Positions 9,062 through 52,407 of a stretch of DNA of 64,000 nucleotides are shown here, piece after piece; the stretch's first letter is position 1, and every line of letters starts with the position of its first letter. The notes below the pieces were generated by a model. That model made no database searches and was not told the origin of the DNA. It saw nothing but the letters and a program-made list of their open reading frames with translations. The position numbers and the translations under genes were made by a program. This stretch comes from Arenibacter sp. ARW7G5Y1 (lineage in GTDB: Bacteria; Bacteroidota; Bacteroidia; Flavobacteriales; Flavobacteriaceae): contig NZ_QJJZ01000001.1 of assembly GCF_003201775.1 (NCBI RefSeq), positions 195,233-259,232 of the forward strand. Direction: 5' to 3'.

Positions 9062-9104
9062 CAAATTTTATACGAAATAGGTTCTTAGAATATGATAATT
9101 ATCA
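9062..9104 (-). promoter_or_regulatory. FNR-type palindrome with possible -7 box, upstream of the cysteine-rich gene
   Basis: The perfect palindrome TGATAATTATCA (9093-9104) is followed on the minus strand, exactly 23 bases on, by AAAATTTG (9069-9062), one base from the Bacteroidota -7 consensus TAnnTTTG. The same 23-base spacing occurs at the sites in the 43-51 kb region. The other strand has no -7 box at that spacing. Confidence 0.5.
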
Positions 9105-43131: not shown

Positions 43132-43174
43132 TAAATCTAAAGGCTATTGTTGATAATAAATATGATATTGGTCA
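43132..43174 (-). promoter_or_regulatory. FNR-type operator with -7 box, universal stress protein
   Basis: On the minus strand TGACCAATATCA (43174-43163), then exactly 23 bases, then TAGATTTA (43139-43132), one base from TAnnTTTG. The palindrome centre falls near -41.5 relative to the expected start. Confidence 0.7.
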
Positions 43175-43288
43175 TAAGTAATGGAGTGCTTAGCTGTTGT
43201 GCAATTGGTGATTTGATTGTAATGTTGGTGATAAATGGAATTTTTGGTGAAACCCCAAGGCTATATGTAACCAAAAATATAGGTTAAC

Positions 43289-43331
43289 TGATATGTATCA
43301 TTTCGAGGGATAATTTGCAATTGTATATTAG
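43289..43331 (+). promoter_or_regulatory. FNR-type operator with -7 box, small HMA-like gene
   Basis: TGATATGTATCA (43289-43300), then exactly 23 bases, then TATATTAG (43324-43331). The -7 box resembles the TATTTTAG of the small RNAs. The gene start at 43363 leaves a leader of about 26 bases. Confidence 0.7.
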
Positions 43332-43362
43332 TAGTCATTGGGATCTATAAAACCATACCTTC

Positions 43363-43632
43363 ATGAAAGCTATAGCAAAAATTGGCAGCCTAATCACTAA
43401 TAGGGACAAGATGATGATTCTCCGCAACCTTAGCCGAATTATGGATATTAGGGTAATTGACCTTGATATTGACACGGGAAAGCTCATTATTCTTTATTAT
43501 AGTCCTATTGCTTTGGAACAGGTAAAGCAAGAACTTTGGAGGATTGGATATCCAATCGGACAGTTTAAATTTCTATCCAGGTTAAGCCCCAACTTACATA
43601 GTGAGGGTAGTACTGAGACCGCCATTGCCTAA
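43363..43632 (+). CDS. Small HMA-fold-like protein lacking the metal cysteines
   Basis: An 89-residue cytoplasmic protein with a ferredoxin-like beta-alpha-beta-beta-alpha-beta pattern: MDIRVIDLDIDTGKLIILYYSP, then a helix (ALEQVKQELWRIGYPIG). This is the layout of heavy-metal-associated domains, but the CxxC motif is missing, so metal binding by that route is unlikely. It is divergent from the universal stress gene, and each carries its own FNR-like site. It may serve as a partner or regulatory module; function unknown. The neighbouring gap to 43786 has no other signal. Confidence 0.6.
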   Translation: MKAIAKIGSLITNRDKMMILRNLSRIMDIRVIDLDIDTGKLIILYYSPIALEQVKQELWRIGYPIGQFKFLSRLSPNLHSEGSTETAIA

Positions 43633-43785
43633 GCATTCCTTAAAATATAACATGGCTTATGTCTACATAAAATATATAAAAGTTTGAAAATTAGGTATCC
43701 ACCATTTGTTTTGGCCAGACACTTACTTATACCGCATCATTTCAGTAACTTTTTACTTTAAATAAATATTTTAAAATTACTTTGA

Positions 43786-44241
43786 ATGAAATCAAAAACA
43801 CAACTGTTCATTGAATTATGGGAAGAAGCCCGGACCCGGTTTTCCAACCAATTATCAAACCTAACGGAAGATGATCTAAGTAAAAGGTTATTGCCTGCGC
43901 CCAATAGTATTGGTTTTCTTATAAGGCATATTGGGGATGTTGAATTGCTTTTTGCCAAGAACGTATTTGGGGCACAGGAGGTAAAGGTAATTGCAAAAAC
44001 GGTCATTGCCCAAAAGGATACAGGAGAGTGGACCAATAGGACCGAATTATTGGAATATGTGGAATATTCTTATCAAATGCTTAAATCGGTGTTGGAAAAA
44101 CAACAGGAGGAGGATTGGGAGACCACAGTTACCACCAAGGAGTTTGGGACCAAGACAAAGGCGGAGGCTTTTGGGAGGATTGTATCCCACACCATACACC
44201 ATTCCGGTCAAATGGTCCTCCTTAAAAAATATGGATCTTAG
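43786..44241 (+). CDS. DinB-family protein
   Basis: A 151-residue four-helix-bundle protein of the DinB/YfiT superfamily, whose members are often metal-dependent thiol or glutathione transferases. Conserved His residues are in LIRHIGDVELLF and SHTIHHSGQMVLL, which together make the family's three-His metal site. The N-terminal FIELWEEARTRFSNQLSNL is typical. No signal peptide is present. It ends 3 bases before the stop of the facing DUF302 gene. Substrate unknown. Confidence 0.8.
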   Translation: MKSKTQLFIELWEEARTRFSNQLSNLTEDDLSKRLLPAPNSIGFLIRHIGDVELLFAKNVFGAQEVKVIAKTVIAQKDTGEWTNRTELLEYVEYSYQMLKSVLEKQQEEDWETTVTTKEFGTKTKAEAFGRIVSHTIHHSGQMVLLKKYGS

Positions 44242-44244
44242 TAT

Positions 44245-44637
44245 TCAATGGATCTTTTCTACCACCCTTTTTAATTTCTTCCCCACTTCATCCGCAATAT
44301 CCATTAAATCCAGGTTAATTACCGCCTGCATGGACGCCATGGGGTTTACCGCTGCAATTTCAACAAGTCCAGGTTCCTTTTCCATAACAATTACATTACA
44401 GGGCAACATAGTGCCAATTTTATCTTCGGCCTGTAAAGCTTTATGGGCAAATGGGGCGTTACAAGCACCCAGAACGATATAATTATAGAAATCTACGTCC
44501 AATTTTTTCTTTAGGGTAGCTTTCATATCTATTTCCGTCAGTACCCCAAAACCCTCCTCTTGTAGGGCCAATTTGGTTTTTTCGATGGCTTGGGCGAAGG
44601 GTATATTTCCAATTGTTTTATTAAAATAATATTCCAT
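44245..44637 (-). CDS. DUF302-domain protein
   Basis: A 130-residue protein of the DUF302 family, with the hallmark FAQAIEKTKLALQEEGFGVLTEIDM and the block GACNAPFAHKALQAEDKIGTMLPCNVIV. Cysteines are in GACNAP and MLPCNV. DUF302 proteins are found with redox, copper or sulfur genes in other bacteria; the function is unknown. It is convergent with DinB and lies downstream of the minus-strand RNA at 44752-44978, whose terminator sits about 115 bases before its start. It could be on that transcript if the terminator leaks. Confidence 0.85.
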   Translation of the reverse strand: MEYYFNKTIGNIPFAQAIEKTKLALQEEGFGVLTEIDMKATLKKKLDVDFYNYIVLGACNAPFAHKALQAEDKIGTMLPCNVIVMEKEPGLVEIAAVNPMASMQAVINLDLMDIADEVGKKLKRVVEKIH

Positions 44638-44751
44638 AATAAAATTATTAATGTGTTTTTATCTAGTATTTAAGGTAGTGATTTTTAAGCCATTTAAATG
44701 GGTCTATGCCGTAAAAAAGGTATAGTAGGCCCTTTATTACTTGGACTTTAT

Positions 44752-44790
44752 AAAAAAAAGGATTGGCATATCCATATATCCCAATCCTTT
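44752..44790 (-). terminator. Rho-independent terminator of the minus-strand RNA
   Basis: AAAGGATTGG on the minus strand (44790-44781) pairs with CCAATCCTTT (44766-44757), followed by a run of eight T. No protein gene ends immediately upstream; OmpA-like ends at 45103, beyond the promoter at 44984. Confidence 0.85.
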
Positions 44791-44978
44791 ATGTCCGGAC
44801 CTTGGTAGCACTTTTGCACCTACCCAATCCCGATGGGGAAATTTACACTTGTAATATCCTTACAAGGGGATGGGTAATAAGGCTCAAGAAGTTACTTTAG
44901 CTCCGGAGTATGGTCGCTAAGGCATTACTGCTTAGAAACTTTATTTTTATTTCTTTCAATGAACGAATGCTTTTTTAC
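44752..44978 (-). ncRNA. Putative non-coding RNA controlled by an FNR-type promoter
   Basis: The interval runs from the predicted start after the -7 box TATTTTAG (44991-44984) to a clear terminator, about 227 bases. It has several hairpins on the minus strand: CTTGTAA/TTACAAG, CTAAG/CTTAG, and palindromes CTCCGGAG and GTCCGGAC. I find no ATG-started frame; a 20-codon TTG frame is possible. It could instead be the leader of DUF302, with the hairpin as an attenuator. It is not a family I recognise. The rest of the 465-base gap 44638-45102 is AT-rich. Confidence 0.5.
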
Positions 44979-44983
44979 TAGTA

Positions 44984-45026
44984 CTAAAATATCGTTATCG
45001 AATTAAAAAAGAAATGACATAGATCA
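44984..45026 (-). promoter_or_regulatory. FNR-type operator with -7 box, minus-strand RNA
   Basis: On the minus strand TGATCTATGTCA (45026-45015), exactly 23 bases, then TATTTTAG (44991-44984). It has the same geometry as the other sites in this region although no protein gene begins close by. Confidence 0.65.
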
Positions 45027-45102
45027 GTTCGATGCTTTTTTCTTGTTTTTTTGATAAAGGAATCGGGATTACTACTTTTTATTAAGTCTTTTATTCATTT
45101 CC

Positions 45103-45957
45103 CTATCCCTCGATATTTGTGGTTGGGGGTTCCAGCAATTCAAAGAATTGATCTAGTTTGGGTAAAATGATAATTTCTGTCCTGCGGTTGATTGCCCTGC
45201 CTTCTGCCGTTGCATTGGTAGTCTTTGGAACGTATTCAGACCTGCCCCCAGCGGTCATTCTTATAGGTTGTACCGCAAATTTAGTTTGCATTAACCGAAC
45301 AATGGAGGTCGCCCTTTTAACACTTAAATCCCAGTTGTCGGTCATACAGTCTGTGGAAATGGGAACATTATCCGTATGCCCTTCCACTAAAATATCAAGT
45401 TCTTTATGGTCATTGATAATCTTGGCAATTTTGCCTATCACTTCCTCTGCCCTGTTACTTATGTTATAGCTTCCGGAACGGAAAAGCATTTTGTCCGAAA
45501 TTGAGACGTAGACCACTCCTTTTTTTACCTCAATATTAATGTCCTCATCCTCAAAATTGTCCAAGGATCTTTTTAAGTTCATCACCAACACCAAATTAAT
45601 GGAATCTTTTCGCTGCATGCTACTGGTAAGGTTCTTTATGTATTTATTCTGTTCGTTTAGGGCTTCCAAAGATTTTTTAATGCTTTCTGCCCCTGATTTG
45701 CTCACAACGGAAAGATCGGATAGTCGGGCCAATAGATCTGTATTGGTACTTTTGAAGTATTCCATTTGTTGCTCCAAGGATTTGGATTTGTTTTTTTCGT
45801 TGGCCAATCCGGCTTCCAGTAAATTGTTTTGGTTCATACTGGTATTTAATTCATTTTCACAATTTAGTGCCCGGTCTTGCATGGCGGTATATTTTTTTTG
45901 ACTTACACAGGAGGTAAAAAGGGTAAGCGCCAATATATAGAGATGTAGTGTTTTCAT
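45103..45957 (-). CDS. OmpA-family lipoprotein
   Basis: A peptidoglycan-associated envelope lipoprotein. From the ATG at 45957 the signal ends in a lipobox (LTLFTSC). A long helical, coiled-coil region (about 20-130; NELNTSMNQNNLLEAGLANEKNKSKSLEQQ and following) is followed by the C-terminal OmpA domain with VEGHTDNVPISTDCMTDNWDLSVKRA and NRRTEIIILPKL. The chosen start agrees with the operator/-7 pair at 45990-46032, which would put the transcript start near 45984; upstream starts to 46002 would lie before it. It probably links the outer membrane to the wall. Confidence 0.88.
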   Translation of the reverse strand: MKTLHLYILALTLFTSCVSQKKYTAMQDRALNCENELNTSMNQNNLLEAGLANEKNKSKSLEQQMEYFKSTNTDLLARLSDLSVVSKSGAESIKKSLEALNEQNKYIKNLTSSMQRKDSINLVLVMNLKRSLDNFEDEDINIEVKKGVVYVSISDKMLFRSGSYNISNRAEEVIGKIAKIINDHKELDILVEGHTDNVPISTDCMTDNWDLSVKRATSIVRLMQTKFAVQPIRMTAGGRSEYVPKTTNATAEGRAINRRTEIIILPKLDQFFELLEPPTTNIEG

Positions 45958-45989
45958 AGTCATAAGTTTTATGGATAATAGTTGTTCCA

Positions 45990-46032
45990 TAAAGAAAGAC
46001 ACAATTTAAAAGGTGTCCAATGATATATGTCA
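45990..46032 (-). promoter_or_regulatory. FNR-type operator, OmpA lipoprotein
   Basis: On the minus strand TGACATATATCA (46032-46021), 23 bases, then TTTCTTTA (45997-45990). The -7 box is the weakest of the set, with two mismatches to TAnnTTTG, but the TTT is in place. Confidence 0.5.
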
Positions 46033-46154
46033 TGTAGGGCAATGGCCCTTTATTTTTTGGTTACGGTATTCTTTCTTCACAATGCTTCGTCATAGTGGTT
46101 CCTTGAACCGGAACTGCCTCTTACTAAACTTATGGTATGCTTTGCATGCATAAC

Positions 46155-46197
46155 TGACAATGGTCATAGGGTGGTGCAGGCTTAAGGCATAGCTTTA
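46155..46197 (+). promoter_or_regulatory. FNR-type operator with -7 box, flavodoxin-like gene
   Basis: TGACAATGGTCA (46155-46166), whose half-sites TGAC/GTCA are exact inverted repeats, then exactly 23 bases, then TAGCTTTA (46190-46197), one base from consensus. Confidence 0.7.
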
Positions 46198-46212
46198 TGA
46201 TCCTTAGCAGGG

Positions 46213-46234
46213 ATTATAGGCTGCTGCCTATAAT
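46213..46234 (+). other. Leader hairpin before the flavodoxin-like gene
   Basis: ATTATAGGC (46213-46221) pairs perfectly with GCCTATAAT (46226-46234), loop TGCT. It lies in the predicted 105-base leader, with no T run after it, so it may protect the 5' end or bind a factor. The gap 45958-46307 otherwise holds only the two operators. Confidence 0.45.
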
Positions 46235-46307
46235 ACTATTTAGAAGGATTAAGAATCGGCTTTACTTTTTTCTCAATTATGGCCGGGATATTAAAAGAAA
46301 GAATTCT

Positions 46308-46817
46308 ATGAAAAATATTAGAAAAATACTTCTTGTATTATTATCGATTGCTTTGGTCTTTTTGGTGTTTATGTTTTGGTATCAAAATGAATACGCTATG
46401 GATCATGTACAGGAATACGAGGTAAATTCTCCCAGGGAAAATTCCAAATTGCTTTTGGCCACTCAGGGAAGTGAATTTAAAAATGCGATTACTACCTCCA
46501 TTGTGGATTATTATAAAACGAAGTCGGTATATATAAAGGTTATGGATGTCTCCGCATTGGTAGGTGTAAATCCTAGTAACTATGATGCCCTATTATTGAT
46601 CCACAGCTGGGAGAATTGGAAGCCACCCTCAGCGGTTAAATCATTTATGGACAGAACCATGAATTACAGGGATAAGATGGTTGTCCTAACCACCTCGGGC
46701 AAAGGCTCCTACAAAATGGAAGGGGTTGATGCCTTTACGGGAGAATCTATTTTGGATGAAACTCCCATGTACGTGGGTGAAATTATTGAAAAATTAAATC
46801 CGTTATTAAAGTTGTAA
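46308..46817 (+). CDS. Membrane-anchored flavodoxin-like protein
   Basis: I start at the ATG at 46308 (MKNIRKILLVLLSIALVFLVFMFWY), which gives one N-terminal membrane anchor; the upstream open frame to 46197 would place residues ahead of the helix and inside the promoter. The rest (about 40-169) looks like a flavodoxin fold: LLLATQGSEFKNAITTSIVDYY, YDALLLIHSWENWKPPSAVKSFMDR and VVLTTSGKGS. The first-loop TxTGT phosphate-binding motif is altered, so flavin binding is uncertain. The active domain should face outside the cytoplasm. A CDP-alcohol transferase gene follows after 51 bases. Confidence 0.65.
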   Translation: MKNIRKILLVLLSIALVFLVFMFWYQNEYAMDHVQEYEVNSPRENSKLLLATQGSEFKNAITTSIVDYYKTKSVYIKVMDVSALVGVNPSNYDALLLIHSWENWKPPSAVKSFMDRTMNYRDKMVVLTTSGKGSYKMEGVDAFTGESILDETPMYVGEIIEKLNPLLKL

Positions 46818-46868
46818 ATATTGCAATAGGGTTTCTGATTTCTGGATATCAAAAACGCATGAATAATT

Positions 46869-47465
46869 ATGTATAATTTTAAAGACTTCAATATAGCCGA
46901 CTGGTTTTCCTTTTATCGAATTATGGCCGTACCCCTATTACTAGGCCTTATTTTGGTTGGCGAACGTGAATGGTTTAGTTGGATGTTGCTTATAAGTTAC
47001 AGTACGGATGCCATTGATGGCTTTTTGGCCAGGAAGTTGAAAATAACAAGTGCCAGGGGCTCACAACTCGATTCTCTTGGAGATCAAGTGACCCTTATTA
47101 TTGGGTTGGTAGGATTGTACTTTTTTGAAAATACGTTTATCATGGAAAATTATCTACTTATAATTATTGTATTTGTACCATACCTGATTCAGATGGCCAT
47201 TGCCTTTGCGAAATACGGCAAAGCCACCGCCTTTCATACGTATTTGGCCAAGTTATCTGCCATTACCCAAGGGGTATTTATTTTATGGCTGTTGTTCCTT
47301 GGACCCGTATATTGGTTATTTTATACCATGATTGTTGTGGGAGTATTGGAAACTGTTGAGGAAATTACACTTATCTTTATGTATGATAACTGGGTAGAGG
47401 ATGTAAAAGGTTATTTCTGGGCGTTGAAGGATAAAAGACGGCTTGTGAATAACAATAACCAATAG
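46869..47465 (+). CDS. CDP-alcohol phosphatidyltransferase-family protein
   Basis: A membrane enzyme of phospholipid head-group transfer, 198 residues with about five helices. The signature DG-x2-AR-x8-G-x3-D-x3-D is complete in DGFLARKLKITSARGSQLD and the following SLGDQ. It probably joins CDP-diacylglycerol, or CDP-choline/ethanolamine-like donors, with an alcohol; PgsA, PssA and Cls-type relatives share the motif, and the short size resembles PgsA-like enzymes. The metallophosphoesterase gene lies 14 bases downstream, so both could belong to the operon begun at 46308. Confidence 0.85.
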   Translation: MYNFKDFNIADWFSFYRIMAVPLLLGLILVGEREWFSWMLLISYSTDAIDGFLARKLKITSARGSQLDSLGDQVTLIIGLVGLYFFENTFIMENYLLIIIVFVPYLIQMAIAFAKYGKATAFHTYLAKLSAITQGVFILWLLFLGPVYWLFYTMIVVGVLETVEEITLIFMYDNWVEDVKGYFWALKDKRRLVNNNNQ

Positions 47466-47479
47466 TAAAACCCCTATTA

Positions 47480-48700
47480 ATGCGATCCTACACTTTTTTT
47501 GCCATAGTCCTTTTGTGTTTTGCCATTTTATTGATCGATGCCTTGGCTTTCTACTGGCTTAAATCTATCATGGAGCCTATTGAATCTTCTACCATTAAGA
47601 ACACTATTTATATCGCCTTTTGGTTTTTTACCATTGGGCTCATTATTTCTATTTTGGTGTTGAAAATTAGATTGGAAAGTATATCCCCTTATAGAAAACA
47701 ACTGCTTATTTCATCCTTATATGGATTAACGGTTTCGTCCTTTATTCCCAAGTTGATCTTTGTAGTTGTTATTTCCATACTTTATTTCTCAAATTTTTTG
47801 ATCACAGGGGAGAAATCCTTGCTGATCATTCCTTTAGTGGGCGTTTTTTTTGGTTTTTTGCCATTCTTCGTTATTGTATATGCCGTCTTCAGGGCGGTAT
47901 ACAGGTTTAAGGTACACAAGGTGGTTATTAAATCCGATTTGCTTCCTTCAAGCTTTAGTGGATTGCGTATAGTTCAAATATCAGATCTTCACTTGGGCAG
48001 TTTCAATTATCGTTATCATATACTGGACCGCGCCATTACAACCATAAACCAATTAAATCCGGATTTCATTTTTTTTACGGGCGATTTGGTAAACAACTAT
48101 GCCTGGGAATTAAATGGTTGGGAGAAAGTTTTAGGGCAGCTCTCCGCCAAAATGGGTAAATATTCGGTGCTTGGAAATCACGACTATGGGGATTATAGCA
48201 AATGGGAATCTGAGGAAGAGCGGAAAAGCAATTTTGAGGATATCAAAGATTTTCATTCCAAAATTGGTTTTAAACTTTTACTGAATGAAGCCGAATGTAT
48301 TGAAAGTGAGGGGGAGAAAATTGCGATCGTGGGCGTCGAAAATTGGGGGAACCCACCTTTTAAGCAATATGGGGACCTACAAAAGGCCCTTCGGAAAGTG
48401 AATGGTATCGACTATAAGATTTTATTGTCCCATGACCCATCGCATTGGAGAGGGGAAGTGTTGGATAAGACCAATATAGCCCTTACGCTTTCAGGGCATA
48501 CCCATGGAATGCAAGCAGGGATCAATATTAAAAATAGGGAATGGAGTCCTATAAAATACAAATACAAACATTGGGCAGGGCTGTATGACTTGGGCCCTCA
48601 ATTTCTATACGTAAGTCGAGGACTTGGCTGGATGGGTTTTCCAGGCCGATTGGGGATGCGTCCGGAAATTACATTTATAGAGCTTGATAACGAAGGGTGA
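47480..48700 (+). CDS. Membrane-bound metallophosphoesterase (YaeI/LpxH-type)
   Basis: A 406-residue protein: about four N-terminal hydrophobic segments (1-140), then a calcineurin-like phosphoesterase domain (about 155-400). Motifs are VQISDLHLGSF, FFTGDLVNNYAWE, VLGNHDYGDY, LLSHDPSHW and LSGHTHGMQAG, all the metal ligands expected. Similar proteins remove lipid or undecaprenyl-linked phosphates or cleave nucleotide-lipids (YaeI, UDP-diacylglucosamine hydrolase relatives). It follows the CDP-alcohol transferase by 14 bases, which suggests a lipid substrate. The gene is convergent with the MCE gene. Confidence 0.85.
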   Translation: MRSYTFFAIVLLCFAILLIDALAFYWLKSIMEPIESSTIKNTIYIAFWFFTIGLIISILVLKIRLESISPYRKQLLISSLYGLTVSSFIPKLIFVVVISILYFSNFLITGEKSLLIIPLVGVFFGFLPFFVIVYAVFRAVYRFKVHKVVIKSDLLPSSFSGLRIVQISDLHLGSFNYRYHILDRAITTINQLNPDFIFFTGDLVNNYAWELNGWEKVLGQLSAKMGKYSVLGNHDYGDYSKWESEEERKSNFEDIKDFHSKIGFKLLLNEAECIESEGEKIAIVGVENWGNPPFKQYGDLQKALRKVNGIDYKILLSHDPSHWRGEVLDKTNIALTLSGHTHGMQAGINIKNREWSPIKYKYKHWAGLYDLGPQFLYVSRGLGWMGFPGRLGMRPEITFIELDNEG

Positions 48701-48750
48701 AACGGCCTTTTAGCTTTAATTGACCAGGACTATAAGGGTATTTTGGAGAC

Positions 48751-49725
48751 TTATCTGTTATTTTTCTCCTTCTTTTCTTTTTTTTTGAAGTAGCCGCGAG
48801 TGAGAAAATTGTGTTTTAAGGCTTCCGTAACTTCATTGAAGTTTTTCACTCCTTCCGTAACGTTTTCCATACTGGTTTCCAGTTGTCGTACCAATACGGT
48901 GTCTGTGGCCAAATAATTAATGGCCCCTTTTCCAGTCTTAATATCCCCGATGACCGAATTTAAGTTCTTGGACATATTTTCGATCTCTAGGCTGGAATTT
49001 TCCAGATGCGAAATTACATTCCTCATTTTATTGCCGGAAATGGAATCCTTTAGGAGAACCCCTGCAGCGCTATTCTCAAAATCGAGCTGCTTTACCATTT
49101 GGTTCATTTCCCGGATCATTTTGTTGGCTTCATTACTGCTCAGTTTTAAATTGGTTATGGTTTGGTGTAGATCCTTGGCCATTAGGGAATCGTTGAGCAA
49201 CCTAGCAAAGGTGCCTTTGCCTTGCGTTAATGACCTAGTGACCTTTAGGAGATCCTGTGTTAATAAAGCTGCATTTTCATTGGTCTGGTTCAAGGTGTTT
49301 AGCATGTCTTGGGTGGCCACCCTGCTATAGGACTGCAATTCATCCCCCGGGCCAATATGGGTTGTCTTTCCTTCCCCCGGTACAATATTGATGAGCATAC
49401 TACCCACAAGTCCATCGGAACCAATGGTAGCTACGGCATCTTTTTTAATATGATTTTGCATTTTTTCCTCAATGATCATATGCACTCGAATGGTGGTATC
49501 GTTGATCATCTCAATTTTGTTCACCGTACCTACATTTATTCCGGAAAAACGTACATTATTCCCATTTTGAAGTCCGTTGGCATTTTTAAAAATGGCACTT
49601 ACGGGAATGGTCTTTCCAAACATATTCTGTCTGTTCCCAATTAAATAGGCAGCAACGACTAGTAGTGCCGTGCCGAAGACTACAAATACTCCGAGTTTCA
49701 AATTTTCTAATTTAGTCTTTGCCAT
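48751..49725 (-). CDS. mlaD: MlaD-family (MCE-domain) lipid-binding protein
   Basis: A single-pass membrane protein with a periplasmic MCE domain, which forms the lipid-conducting ring of an Mla-type transporter. The ATG at 49725 gives MAKTKLENLKLGVFVVFGTALLVVAAYLIG as anchor; an in-frame start upstream at 49800 overlaps MlaF. The MCE core is GNNVRFSGINVGTVNKIEM and IGSDGLVGSMLINIVPG. A long helical tail (about 150-320) could make a tunnel or needle to the outer membrane. mlaF and mlaE lie just upstream in the same operon. Confidence 0.88.
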   Translation of the reverse strand: MAKTKLENLKLGVFVVFGTALLVVAAYLIGNRQNMFGKTIPVSAIFKNANGLQNGNNVRFSGINVGTVNKIEMINDTTIRVHMIIEEKMQNHIKKDAVATIGSDGLVGSMLINIVPGEGKTTHIGPGDELQSYSRVATQDMLNTLNQTNENAALLTQDLLKVTRSLTQGKGTFARLLNDSLMAKDLHQTITNLKLSSNEANKMIREMNQMVKQLDFENSAAGVLLKDSISGNKMRNVISHLENSSLEIENMSKNLNSVIGDIKTGKGAINYLATDTVLVRQLETSMENVTEGVKNFNEVTEALKHNFLTRGYFKKKEKKEKNNR

Positions 49726-49729
49726 ATGC

Positions 49730-50512
49730 TTATTTTTTAAAAAACGCATCCACTTTTGGATCGGTAGATTGCGATAATTGTGAATAGGTACCTTCCGCAT
49801 AATTTATACCATCTACCAGAAGTATCATCCGCTCAGAAATTACACGGGCACAGTCCACATCATGGGTAATGATCAGGGAAGAAGTACCGTATTTCTTTTG
49901 AATGGAACGCATAAGTTCTATAATCTCCTTGGAGGTAATGGGATCCAAACCACTGGTAGGCTCATCATAGAGGATAACTTTTGGTTTAAGTATCAGGGTA
50001 CGTGCCAGGGCTACCCTTCTTTTCATACCTCCCGATAACTCTACGGGCATTAAATCCATGGTATGAGCCAATCCAACATTTTCCAGGGCTTCCCGCACCA
50101 GGGGTTCGGTATCCGTAACCGCTCCCAATTTTTCTTTGTGCCTACGCATGGGAAATTCCAAATTTTCACGGACCGTCATGGAATCGTAAAGGGCACTCCC
50201 CTGAAAAAGAAATCCGATATCCGAACGCAATTCGTCCAAGGTTTTCTGGTCCAATGCATTTATTTCCTTGCCCAAAACCTTGACCGTTCCTCTATCGGGT
50301 TTTACCAGCCCTACGAGGCATTTGATCATGACCGATTTACCGGAGCCCGATTTACCCATGACCACTAGGTTTTCCCCTTCCATAAGGGTCATGTTAAATC
50401 CGTTCAGGACGTGATTGTTCCCAAAACTCTTATATAGGTCTTTGATCTCAATAACCGCTTTTCCCCGAGGGAGGGTTTCGTTTGAAGTTATTATTTGGTT
50501 TGGGTCTGTCAT
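49730..50512 (-). CDS. mlaF: MlaF-type ABC transporter ATP-binding protein
   Basis: The ATPase that drives lipid movement by the Mla complex. The start at 50512 begins directly after the mlaE stop, with MTDPNQIITSNETLP. Walker A is MGKSGSGKSVMIK, the signature LSGGMKRRVALARTL and Walker B LYDEPTSGLDP. About 260 residues is normal. It lies between the permease gene and mlaD, with a coupling start and end, as in many Gram-negative mla operons. Direction of transport (retrograde, outer to inner membrane) is known for E. coli and inferred here. Confidence 0.92.
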   Translation of the reverse strand: MTDPNQIITSNETLPRGKAVIEIKDLYKSFGNNHVLNGFNMTLMEGENLVVMGKSGSGKSVMIKCLVGLVKPDRGTVKVLGKEINALDQKTLDELRSDIGFLFQGSALYDSMTVRENLEFPMRRHKEKLGAVTDTEPLVREALENVGLAHTMDLMPVELSGGMKRRVALARTLILKPKVILYDEPTSGLDPITSKEIIELMRSIQKKYGTSSLIITHDVDCARVISERMILLVDGINYAEGTYSQLSQSTDPKVDAFFKK

Positions 50513-50513
50513 A

Positions 50514-51296
50514 TTAAAGTTCATAAAAAATATCGGAAATAAATACCGCAATAAAATCGATCACAAACAAAAGTAGGGATGCCATTACTACAGCCGTATT
50601 GGCTGCTACCCCAACGCCTGCCGTTCCCTTCTTGGAATAATAGCCTTTAAAACATCCAACCAATCCTATTGCAAATCCAAAAAAGAACGATTTTATGGTG
50701 GCCGGTACCAGGTCACTAAAGGACAAAGCATCGAAAACCGTATTAAAATAGAGTTGAAAGGAAACATCACCCTTTAAATTCTCTACTAGTGCCGATCCAT
50801 ATAGGGCTACCAAATCCCCGTATATGACTAAAATGGGTATCATTAGAGTTGTGGCCATTATCCGCGTTATTACCAAATATTTAAATGGGTTGGTTCCCGA
50901 TACTTCCATGGCATCAATTTGCTCGGTTACCCGCATAGAACCTAATTCTGCCCCTATCCCTGAGGCTATTCGGCCAGCGCAGATCAGGGCGGTAATAACG
51001 GGCCCTATCTCCCTTACTATGGAGATCCCTACCATGTTGGGCATCCATGAAACGGCTCCGAATTGAATCAAAGTGGGTCTGGATTGTAAGGTAAGTACCA
51101 GACCGATGATAAAGCCTGTAATCGTTACCAGGACCAGGGATCTATTTCCCATTTGATAGCATTGCCGCATTAATTCCTTAAACTCGAAAGGAGGTTTTAG
51201 TACTTCCTTAAAAAACCGGGTGGCAAAATTGGAGAGATCCCCAATCTCTATGAAAAATTCTTTTAGCCCTTTAAATAATGTAGATGTGTTGCCCAT
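50514..51296 (-). CDS. mlaE: MlaE-family ABC transporter permease
   Basis: The inner-membrane permease of the Mla phospholipid transport complex, about 260 residues, five to six helices. Family motifs are GFIIGLVLTLQSRPTLIQFGA, REIGPVITALICAGRIASGIGAELGSMRVTEQIDAMEVSGTNPF and GYYSKKGTAGVGVAANTAVV. The ATG at 51296 replaces the TTG at 51302. It is the first gene of mlaE-mlaF-mlaD and is divergent from the L,D-transpeptidase gene. The FNR-type site between them points toward the transpeptidase, not toward mlaE. Confidence 0.92.
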   Translation of the reverse strand: MGNTSTLFKGLKEFFIEIGDLSNFATRFFKEVLKPPFEFKELMRQCYQMGNRSLVLVTITGFIIGLVLTLQSRPTLIQFGAVSWMPNMVGISIVREIGPVITALICAGRIASGIGAELGSMRVTEQIDAMEVSGTNPFKYLVITRIMATTLMIPILVIYGDLVALYGSALVENLKGDVSFQLYFNTVFDALSFSDLVPATIKSFFFGFAIGLVGCFKGYYSKKGTAGVGVAANTAVVMASLLLFVIDFIAVFISDIFYEL

Positions 51297-51389
51297 ACCC
51301 AAATCCCTTTGTAAGGGTCTATTTCATCAAAGATAGCATGAAAGCCAGGGGCTTAAAATGAGGAATGTCATATACCGGGGGAAAGGGTG

Positions 51390-51432
51390 TGACCATTATC
51401 ATTTTATAATCCCATGAGGCGTATTAGCTTTG
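51390..51432 (+). promoter_or_regulatory. FNR-type operator with perfect -7 box, L,D-transpeptidase
   Basis: TGACCATTATCA (51390-51401), then exactly 23 bases, then TAGCTTTG (51425-51432), a perfect TAnnTTTG. The opposite strand has no -7 box at that spacing. The transcript would start near 51438, 22 bases before the gene. Confidence 0.75.
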
Positions 51433-51459: not shown

Positions 51460-52407
51460 ATGATTAAAGCCAATATTATCTTTCTATATGTATTAGCTCT
51501 TTTGATAGTTTCATGTAATGTCAATCGACCTATTTCACCAAAGAATACTTCCATTGAAAAGTCCAACACCCCAGCAAAAAGGGTAGAGGCGCAGAATAAT
51601 ATTCCAGAGAAAGCCAAACCTCTTCTGGCTTATGTTACCAAGGATATTACAGTGGGCCATTATTTTAAGTTTATGGATTCTTTGGCGAATAGGTACGACT
51701 CCTTGGTGCCCTATGCTTTGTCCGAGCATGTCTTGGTACATGCCAATCCGTGGATAATGGATACCTTGGCCAATACGGATTATTACCGGCAGATGGCGTT
51801 GGATTCCTTTGTTTATGATCAAAGTAAAATGATTGTACTCAAGGCTCACGACACCTTGTTGATTCCGAATGATACTGAAGGACAGGGGATTATAAGAGAT
51901 TTGGAACATACTTGGATAGACGTAAACATTCCAGAGTTTAAGCTTCGCATTTATCAAGATTCCCTACTGTTATATATCTTCCCAGTACGGGTAGGACAGC
52001 ACAGAAAAAGATATTTGGCCATGGGAGACCGAATAACCGATTTAAGGACCAAAACCGGAAAAGGAAAAATAGTAAGACTGGAACGAAATCCTCATTTTTA
52101 TAATCCGGTGACCGGCAAGCGATTTTATGTAACTAAAAGAGATGATAAAAAAACTACCATAATGCCTATTATCCCATGGATTGAAACAGAAATAAATGGT
52201 ATTCGCAATGGGCAAATGATACATCCCACCACCAATCCAGAAACCCTGGGAAGGGCATATTCCAACGGTTGTATAGGTGTAGCCGAATCCGATGCATGGA
52301 TTATTTATTACCACGCCCCCTTAAATACCCCGATCCAAATACGATACGATTTAACTATTTTGGATGATAAGGGTGAAAAAAGGGAACTAGAGGATATTTA
52401 TAAGTAG
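51460..52407 (+). CDS. L,D-transpeptidase (YkuD) lipoprotein
   Basis: A 315-residue envelope enzyme that forms 3-3 peptide cross-links or ties lipoproteins to the wall. A lipobox (LLIVSC) ends the signal peptide. The YkuD catalytic region is IHPTTNPETLGRAYSNGCIGV, with His and the SxGC nucleophile in the right order. The region upstream (about 75-150) has no LysM domain but is a beta-rich substrate part. Its promoter has an FNR-like operator, so wall cross-linking may rise under low oxygen or NO. Confidence 0.88.
   Translation: MIKANIIFLYVLALLIVSCNVNRPISPKNTSIEKSNTPAKRVEAQNNIPEKAKPLLAYVTKDITVGHYFKFMDSLANRYDSLVPYALSEHVLVHANPWIMDTLANTDYYRQMALDSFVYDQSKMIVLKAHDTLLIPNDTEGQGIIRDLEHTWIDVNIPEFKLRIYQDSLLLYIFPVRVGQHRKRYLAMGDRITDLRTKTGKGKIVRLERNPHFYNPVTGKRFYVTKRDDKKTTIMPIIPWIETEINGIRNGQMIHPTTNPETLGRAYSNGCIGVAESDAWIIYYHAPLNTPIQIRYDLTILDDKGEKRELEDIYK

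Follow-up and report, generated by a model that had tools for sequence, protein, structure and literature searches.

Crp/Fnr-type operators at a fixed distance from the Bacteroidota -7 box in Arenibacter sp. ARW7G5Y1, and a candidate small RNA behind one of them

Operators, boxes and genes in the window

The stretch of DNA analysed here (the window; 64 kb of contig NZ_QJJZ01000001.1 of Arenibacter sp. ARW7G5Y1, family Flavobacteriaceae) carries a set of predicted promoters in which a Crp/Fnr-type palindrome precedes a Bacteroidota -7 box by 23 bases (gap 23). Behind them lie genes for a universal stress protein (Usp), a small HMA-like protein, envelope proteins and a predicted small RNA (Table 1). 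The six promoters between 43.1 and 51.4 kb and a seventh site at 9093 are very probably activated from the class II position and members of a single Crp/Fnr-type regulon that extends over the Arenibacter genome. The candidate regulators are an Fnr protein and two receiver-Crp fusions encoded on other contigs. The operator, its spacing and conservation, the nearby genes and the conservation of the RNA are read from the sequence as described below.

Twelve exact TGAYNNNNRTCA palindromes are present in the window, compared to a mean of 3.38 and a largest value of 8 in 100 shuffles. Six of them are the operators of promoters 1 to 6. These six had been listed in a preliminary description, and both the palindromes and the sequences quoted 23 bases downstream were found exactly as given, on the strands implied. 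A TAnnTT box at gap 23 is absent from all of the remaining six, and five have nothing box-like there; the sixth, at 9093 on the minus strand, has AAAATTTG. The earlier count of five boxes and a weaker one was thus accurate for the listed sites, although it missed the seventh, and the weak box of promoter 4 is nonetheless kept as TTTCTTTA or TTACTTTA in all five named Arenibacter species.

The lipoprotein gene behind promoter 4 is taken to start at an inner ATG (MKTLHLY...), a choice made from the predicted transcript start. The membrane-anchored protein behind promoter 5, described before as flavodoxin-like, matched nothing in Pfam or NCBIfam. A protein resembling the HMA-like one by eye is also found behind a gap-23 site at C9:139433 (~139 kb; C1, C2, C9 and C10 denote contigs).

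Table 1. Predicted promoters, genes and RNA features in the window. Positions are those of the window; "named" refers to the five named Arenibacter species, aa to amino acids and ORF to open reading frame.
Feature	Position	Strand	Details
Promoter 1	43132..43174	-	operator 43163-43174; box TAGATTTA 43132-43139; predicted start ~43127; kept in 5/5 named
Universal stress protein gene, 280 aa	42270..43112	-	promoter 1 target; Pfam Usp 3e-22
Promoter 2	43289..43331	+	operator 43289-43300; box TATATTAG 43324-43331; predicted start ~43336; kept in 5/5 named
Small HMA-like protein, 89 aa	43363..43632	+	ORF after promoter 2; NCBIfam CsoZ weak, 25 bits against a cut-off of 77
Promoter 3	44984..45026	-	operator 45015-45026; box TATTTTAG 44984-44991; predicted start ~44979; both in 10/10 RNA-holding Arenibacter loci
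Predicted small RNA, ~228 nucleotides	44752..44979	-	from promoter 3; structured, apparently non-coding
Stem-loop CTAAGCAGTAATGCCTTAG	44917..44935	-	invariant part of the RNA family
Terminator-like hairpin, then T run	44752..44789	-	columns 198-225 paired in the consensus fold
DUF302 protein gene	44245..44637	-	downstream of the RNA; Pfam DUF302 4e-23
Promoter 4	45990..46032	-	operator 46021-46032; weak box TTTCTTTA 45990-45997; predicted start ~45985
OmpA-domain lipoprotein	45103..45957	-	promoter 4 target; Pfam OmpA 6e-17; start at 46002 in the ORF list
Promoter 5	46155..46197	+	operator 46155-46166; box TAGCTTTA 46190-46197; predicted start ~46202; kept in 5/5 named
Membrane-anchored protein, 169 aa	46308..46817	+	promoter 5 target; relatives in 15/100 genomes
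Promoter 6	51390..51432	+	operator 51390-51401; box TAGCTTTG 51425-51432; predicted start ~51437; kept in 5/5 named
L,D-transpeptidase (YkuD) gene	51460..52407	+	promoter 6 target; Pfam YkuD 5e-16
Seventh site	9062..9104	-	operator 9093-9104; gap 23; box AAAATTTG 9062-9069
Conserved protein gene, 602 aa	7137..8945	-	behind the 9093 site; without Pfam family

The spacing between palindrome and box

The frequency of the spacing was determined in a sample of 859 kb, 15% of the genome, made up of C1 (1-279 kb, including the window), C2 (1-220 kb), C9 (1-220 kb) and C10 (1-140 kb). A strict site was defined as a TGAYN4RTCA palindrome with a TAnnTTNR box at gap 23, the flanking bases being left free. 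Of 84 palindromes, 35 had the box at gap 23. At the other 60 gaps (0 to 60) the counts did not exceed 3 each and summed to 38. In 20 dinucleotide shuffles of the sample the full pattern occurred 0.4 times on average and at most twice. C9 and C10 had been selected for carrying Crp/Fnr genes and supply 28 of the 35 cases. In C1 and C2 (499 kb including the window) there are seven gap-23 cases, five of them from the window itself, and at most two at any other gap.

The pairs could have arisen by chance in an AT-rich genome. Five of the 12 window palindromes are without a gap-23 box, and palindromes alone are enriched only from an expected 51 to the observed 84. The gap-23 peak, the shuffles, and the conservation of half-sites and boxes above the spacer (next section) refute a chance origin, and its probability is negligible. 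The earlier view that the recurrence of the 23-base spacing is hard to attribute to chance is thus borne out.

The strict sites were found across contigs, and the dense part of the regulon lies at C9:56-101 kb. The term "compact regulon" used before is therefore not appropriate; the regulon is spread out over the genome and the six listed sites are an outlying cluster of it. At C9:63389, C9:78924 and C9:85608 a single palindrome has strict gap-23 boxes on both sides, so that two divergent class II promoters may share an operator there.

Conservation in Arenibacter and in other genera

A search by name retrieved five Arenibacter records, and all six listed sites are present in each of them. Identity to the window over the six sites and five species was 229/240 in the half-sites, 104/120 in the middle four bases and 531/690 in the spacer. 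In the box it was 60/60 at positions 1-2, 42/60 at positions 3-4, 60/60 at positions 5-6 and 56/60 at positions 7-8. The ten bases upstream gave 206/300 and the twenty downstream 437/600. The 9093 site is present in all 14 Arenibacter loci recovered from 18 genomes searched, always at gap 23 and with AAAATTTG or AAATTTTG as the box. At two of these loci the operator is altered to TGACAAAAATCA, with spacing and box unchanged.

The named relatives have additional palindromes, also conserved, at ~41.4 kb (L085-L088) and ~43.05 kb (L085-L089) on the scale of the window, followed at gap 23 by TACTTTTG or CATTTTTG. No counterpart of these is present among the exact palindromes of the window.

Similar counts were made outside Arenibacter, in 20 stretches, each of 20 kb, that represent 17 genera of Flavobacteriaceae and were picked for adjoining fnr or rec-crp genes. 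They contain 98 palindromes, 59 of them with strict boxes at gap 23. The remaining 60 gaps gave at most 9 each and 63 in sum. The region upstream of fnr was examined at 30 loci (18 Arenibacter, 12 other genera). A TAnnTT box faces fnr at gap 23 in 20 of the 30, and in two Arenibacter genomes (L101, L102) the box on this side stands at gap 22. On the side opposite fnr, NAnnTTTG occurs at gap 23 in 29 of the 30 loci (L090-L119). This box, with C, A or G in first position instead of T, is a variant of the -7 box that recurs.

Operator sequence and promoter geometry

At the 35 strict sites the base preceding TGA is A in 17, C in 16, G in 2 and T in none, and the base following TCA is T in 31 and G in 4. 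In the other genera A (28) and C (27) again precede TGA, with T at three and G at one of the 59 sites. As deduced from these sites, the operator is MTGAY-N4-RTCAK. The strict FNR box (TTGAT-N4-ATCAA), with which the sites had been compared, was ruled out by its outer T, found in 0/35 sites here and 3/59 in other genera; the assignment to a Crp/Fnr-type operator holds. The operators have the twofold-symmetric TGA-N6-TCA of class II Crp/Fnr promoters, and their half-sites are kept in relatives.

In PMC9723704 the sigma-A box TAnnTTTG of Flavobacterium psychrophilum is placed at -12 to -5. With this box position, which belongs to another genus, and a 23-base gap the palindrome would span -47 to -36, with its centre at -41.5. 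The class II-like distance proposed before is supported by this calculation. The operator-box distance itself is fixed, while the absolute position leans on the F. psychrophilum box.

Candidate regulators

Seven HTH_Crp_2 matches were found in the genome, four of them above the cut-off. Three of these four proteins have similar recognition helices, namely Fnr on C10 (TESAIR) and two receiver-Crp fusions on C9 (TETAIR and TESLIR); the helix of the fourth, SRVVVSR, is different.

The fnr gene lies at ~100 kb on C10 (L002), near a cbb3 oxidase gene, and itself carries a gap-23 promoter. The gene opposite fnr in this genome encodes a heavy-metal P-type ATPase, which is probably CcoI. The start of Fnr is most likely M21 of the long frame (MGRCENC), since alignments with relatives from other genera begin near this residue and stop codons occur just upstream at several loci. 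Crp/Fnr domains are present in the protein, and it matches solved FNR chains with an E value of 1e-23. In 20 aligned Fnr sequences C4, C7, C53 and C106 are invariant. The cluster cysteines of E. coli FNR are C20, C23, C29 and C122. In the alignment to the solved chains C4, C7 and C106 meet cysteines, Asn13 stands at a further FNR cysteine and C53 faces an alanine.

The main readers of the operator could be the fusions instead, the regulon answering a histidine-kinase signal and Fnr acting chiefly at its own locus and the cbb3 genes there. The dense part on C9 surrounds both fusion genes, and one kinase-fusion operon sits behind a gap-23 site at C9:80633. Also, in the stretches of G040 and G027, genomes in which a fusion is the only relative of Fnr at E <= 1e-20, strict gap-23 boxes accompany 2/5 and 4/4 palindromes, respectively. 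In G008, G006 and G029, however, Fnr is alone at this threshold and the gap-23 sites at its locus are kept, and ccoNO, hemN and fnr as targets suit an Fnr regulon. On this evidence, fusions as the main readers are somewhat unlikely. The simplest reading of sites kept in both kinds of genome is that both regulator classes read one operator. To the FNR-like control suggested in the preliminary description it has to be added that fusions of similar helix are candidates beside Fnr, so that at least two regulator classes have to be considered.

A wider family search gave a few additional Crp/Fnr proteins in each of G008, G006, G029, G040 and G027. No TESxIR motif was present in those additional proteins whose helix could be read (G006, G024, G026, G027); several helices were unreadable. 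At C9:80633 (L012) a PAS histidine-kinase gene and then a receiver-Crp fusion gene follow the site, an arrangement possibly allowing feed-forward or self-control of the second regulator. In PMC8510549, the nearest paper found, a Flavobacteriales Crp/Fnr homologue is assigned to carbon sensing, and it need not equal the protein described here.

Predicted target genes outside the window

Targets were assigned by a script that took the longest ORF within 500 bases downstream of a strict site. A fused ccoNO gene and hemN lie behind strict sites, both above NCBIfam cut-offs. Other targets are thioredoxin, an M50 protease, Hsp20, a cation ATPase, the PAS kinase upstream of the fusion gene, a pyridoxamine-oxidase-like protein and an ABC1-type kinase. 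Ten Usp genes behind sites outside the window add to the one within it. The boxes of one of the ten (C9:140992) and of a phosphoribosyltransferase gene (C2:92339) fall slightly outside the strict count.

The targets had been described as of an anaerobic and stress kind. This view is supported mainly by ccoNO, hemN and the metal P-type ATPase next to fnr, all outside the window, and less by the window genes, so that low oxygen as the signal is suggested chiefly by the former. In F. psychrophilum, cbb3 oxidase and haem synthesis are raised under oxygen limitation according to PMC9723704, a response which fits the predicted targets ccoNO and hemN.

A predicted structured small RNA behind promoter 3

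An RNA had been named among the targets, and a structured RNA of ~228 nucleotides is indeed predicted behind promoter 3. Its sequence gave matches in a DNA search in 11 of 18 Arenibacter genomes, including its own. Ten matches extend across the RNA body, and all ten have operator and box. The eleventh genome, G063, was left out of the RNA model, as only 31 bases matched and the RNA at that site is not alike. The predicted fold beats 200/200 shuffles (z -3.95), and the consensus has 57 pairs, 8 of them with changes on both sides. The apex of the stem-loop, AAGCAGUAAUGCCUU with its GUAA loop, is invariant across 8 distinct rows. Its lower stem covaries, with 95.5% of cells paired and five cells with two-sided changes. 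None of 500 shuffles reaches this, and the best slid version attains 52.3%. Two of the five stem-loop measures are ordinary (56/500 and 206/500 shuffles).

A coding role of the RNA was considered and rejected, the frame through the stem-loop having no preceding start codon in L141, L143 and L144. A TTG-started frame of 20 codons and other frames do exist within the RNA in its own genome. The features expected of a small RNA were found, namely a conserved structure, no conserved coding frame, its own predicted promoter and, in the folds, a terminator. A rule-based terminator scan of 44600-45100 accepted no terminator, the RNA hairpin included. In the window and four RNA loci no Rfam match reached the gathering threshold, and two sub-threshold matches to viral families were taken as chance. 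A direct-repeat search gave nothing useful.

A second kind of copy of the RNA was detected by the covariance model in six genomes (G063, G064, G065, G067, G074 and G075). At L130 and L141-L144 the stem-loop begins 290 or 480-482 bases past the operator start, behind other hairpins with T runs seen by eye. These preceding hairpins make each locus look like an array of RNAs behind one gap-23 promoter. Four of the five arrays adjoin a phosphoribosyltransferase gene, and the final segment bears the invariant stem-loop. No such RNA cluster beside a phosphoribosyltransferase gene was found in the genome of strain ARW7G5Y1. In G065 (L140) the stem-loop lies ~96 bases past the operator, near a usp-like gene. 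Beyond the genus the covariance model gave weak matches, with E values from 5e-5 to 0.008.

The DUF302 gene may be read from promoter 3 by read-through, and the RNA (44979-44752) could be a leader of this gene with an attenuating terminator rather than a trans-acting RNA. A DUF302-like gene follows the window-type RNA in all ten genomes, ~115 bases past the hairpin, which makes the leader a live rival, and the rejection of the hairpin by the terminator scan also agrees with it. The leader role is weakened by the copies elsewhere, as the same stem-loop is present at other loci in six genomes and no DUF302-like ORF was seen within these 3.2-kb loci. We consider the leader role rather unlikely, and the RNA probably acts in trans.

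Searches of the genome for the Hfq and ProQ families gave no match; both searches were positive in E. coli.

Discussion

From these results we infer protein binding at the operators, activation, a signal role of oxygen and an action of the RNA, and propose the following scheme. A Crp/Fnr dimer with the recognition helix TE[ST]xIR would bind MTGAY-N4-RTCAK centred at -41.5 and recruit RNA polymerase to the TAnnTTTR-like -7 box. Fnr, whose gene lies close to the cbb3 oxidase gene and itself carries such a promoter, is the best candidate for this reader. The operator is probably also recognized by the two response-regulator-Crp fusions on C9, and a two-component signal would thereby reach the same set of genes. 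The resulting output would be a low-oxygen or respiratory-stress programme comprising cbb3 oxidase, oxygen-independent haem synthesis, Usp, a chaperone, thioredoxin and envelope proteins. The small RNA from promoter 3 would belong to this output.

Several points weigh against a genome-wide Fnr-type regulon. Beyond the listed sites, C1 and C2 yield only two strict sites; together with the selection of C9 and C10 this means that the sample overstates the density of sites. The outer base of the half-site is unlike that of FNR boxes. Fnr scores 109 bits on the NCBIfam Fnr model, under the cut-off of 228, and lacks the full set of four FNR cysteines, three being aligned and one replaced by Asn. Lastly, the assignment of targets by script may err where the gene is far from the site.

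In E. coli, the operators of class II FNR- and CRP-dependent promoters are centred at -41.5 and the box is TATAAT. The Arenibacter promoters are similar in the calculated distance of the operator from the start, in the protein family and in the core TGA-N6-TCA. They differ in having the Bacteroidota box TAnnTTTR and A or C rather than T as the outer base of the half-site, and in the Arenibacter sample the class II spacing is nearly exclusive. The low-oxygen regulons of FNR, FnrL, FixK and Anr in Proteobacteria include ccoNO, hemN, Usp and Hsp20-type genes, and the regulator is encoded near cbb3 oxidase genes. The predicted Arenibacter regulon shares these targets and this location of the regulator gene. 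In contrast, its Fnr has N at the third N-terminal cluster cysteine and an additional invariant C53, response-regulator-Crp fusions of similar helix are added, and the half-site is different.

FNR-activated small RNAs are known as FnrS in enterobacteria and AniS in Neisseria. The Arenibacter RNA is like them in standing behind a predicted class II Crp/Fnr promoter, but it is unrelated in sequence, occurs in a genome without an Hfq match, and has arrays and related copies at other loci. In the same family, Flavobacteriaceae, the Rfp RNAs of F. psychrophilum are described as independent structured RNAs in PMC9723704. The predicted Arenibacter RNA is likewise structured. "Fnr" and "Crp" occur 0 times in the main text of that paper.

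A wider proposal, which we regard as tentative and on balance doubtful, is that the RNA of the window and its relatives at other loci form an Arenibacter family of small RNAs that are induced by low oxygen and act in trans, some of them arrayed behind one class II promoter. The invariant apex AAGCAGUAAUGCCUU and the covarying lower stem would dock an RNA-binding protein that takes over the work of Hfq where both Hfq and ProQ are lacking. The family would be run by an Fnr with rearranged cysteines and by two-component Crp fusions, acting on one operator at one distance.

Class II control by Crp/Fnr proteins is of a known kind. It is chiefly the RNA family that appears new, and with it the regulon in this bacterial family, the altered operator and the two reader classes; no published account of the regulon or of the RNA was found in the open-licence literature searched. 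Bacteroidota transcribe from a divergent promoter box, and little was found in print on how activators act there. Dozens of promoters in a family of marine bacteria bear one operator at one distance, which makes the regulon readable from sequence and class II activation testable on the Bacteroidota box. An Fnr with three classic cluster cysteines and a different invariant fourth raises the specific question of how it might sense oxygen. The small RNA is a candidate for an RNA regulator of the low-oxygen type in a genome without matches to Hfq or ProQ.

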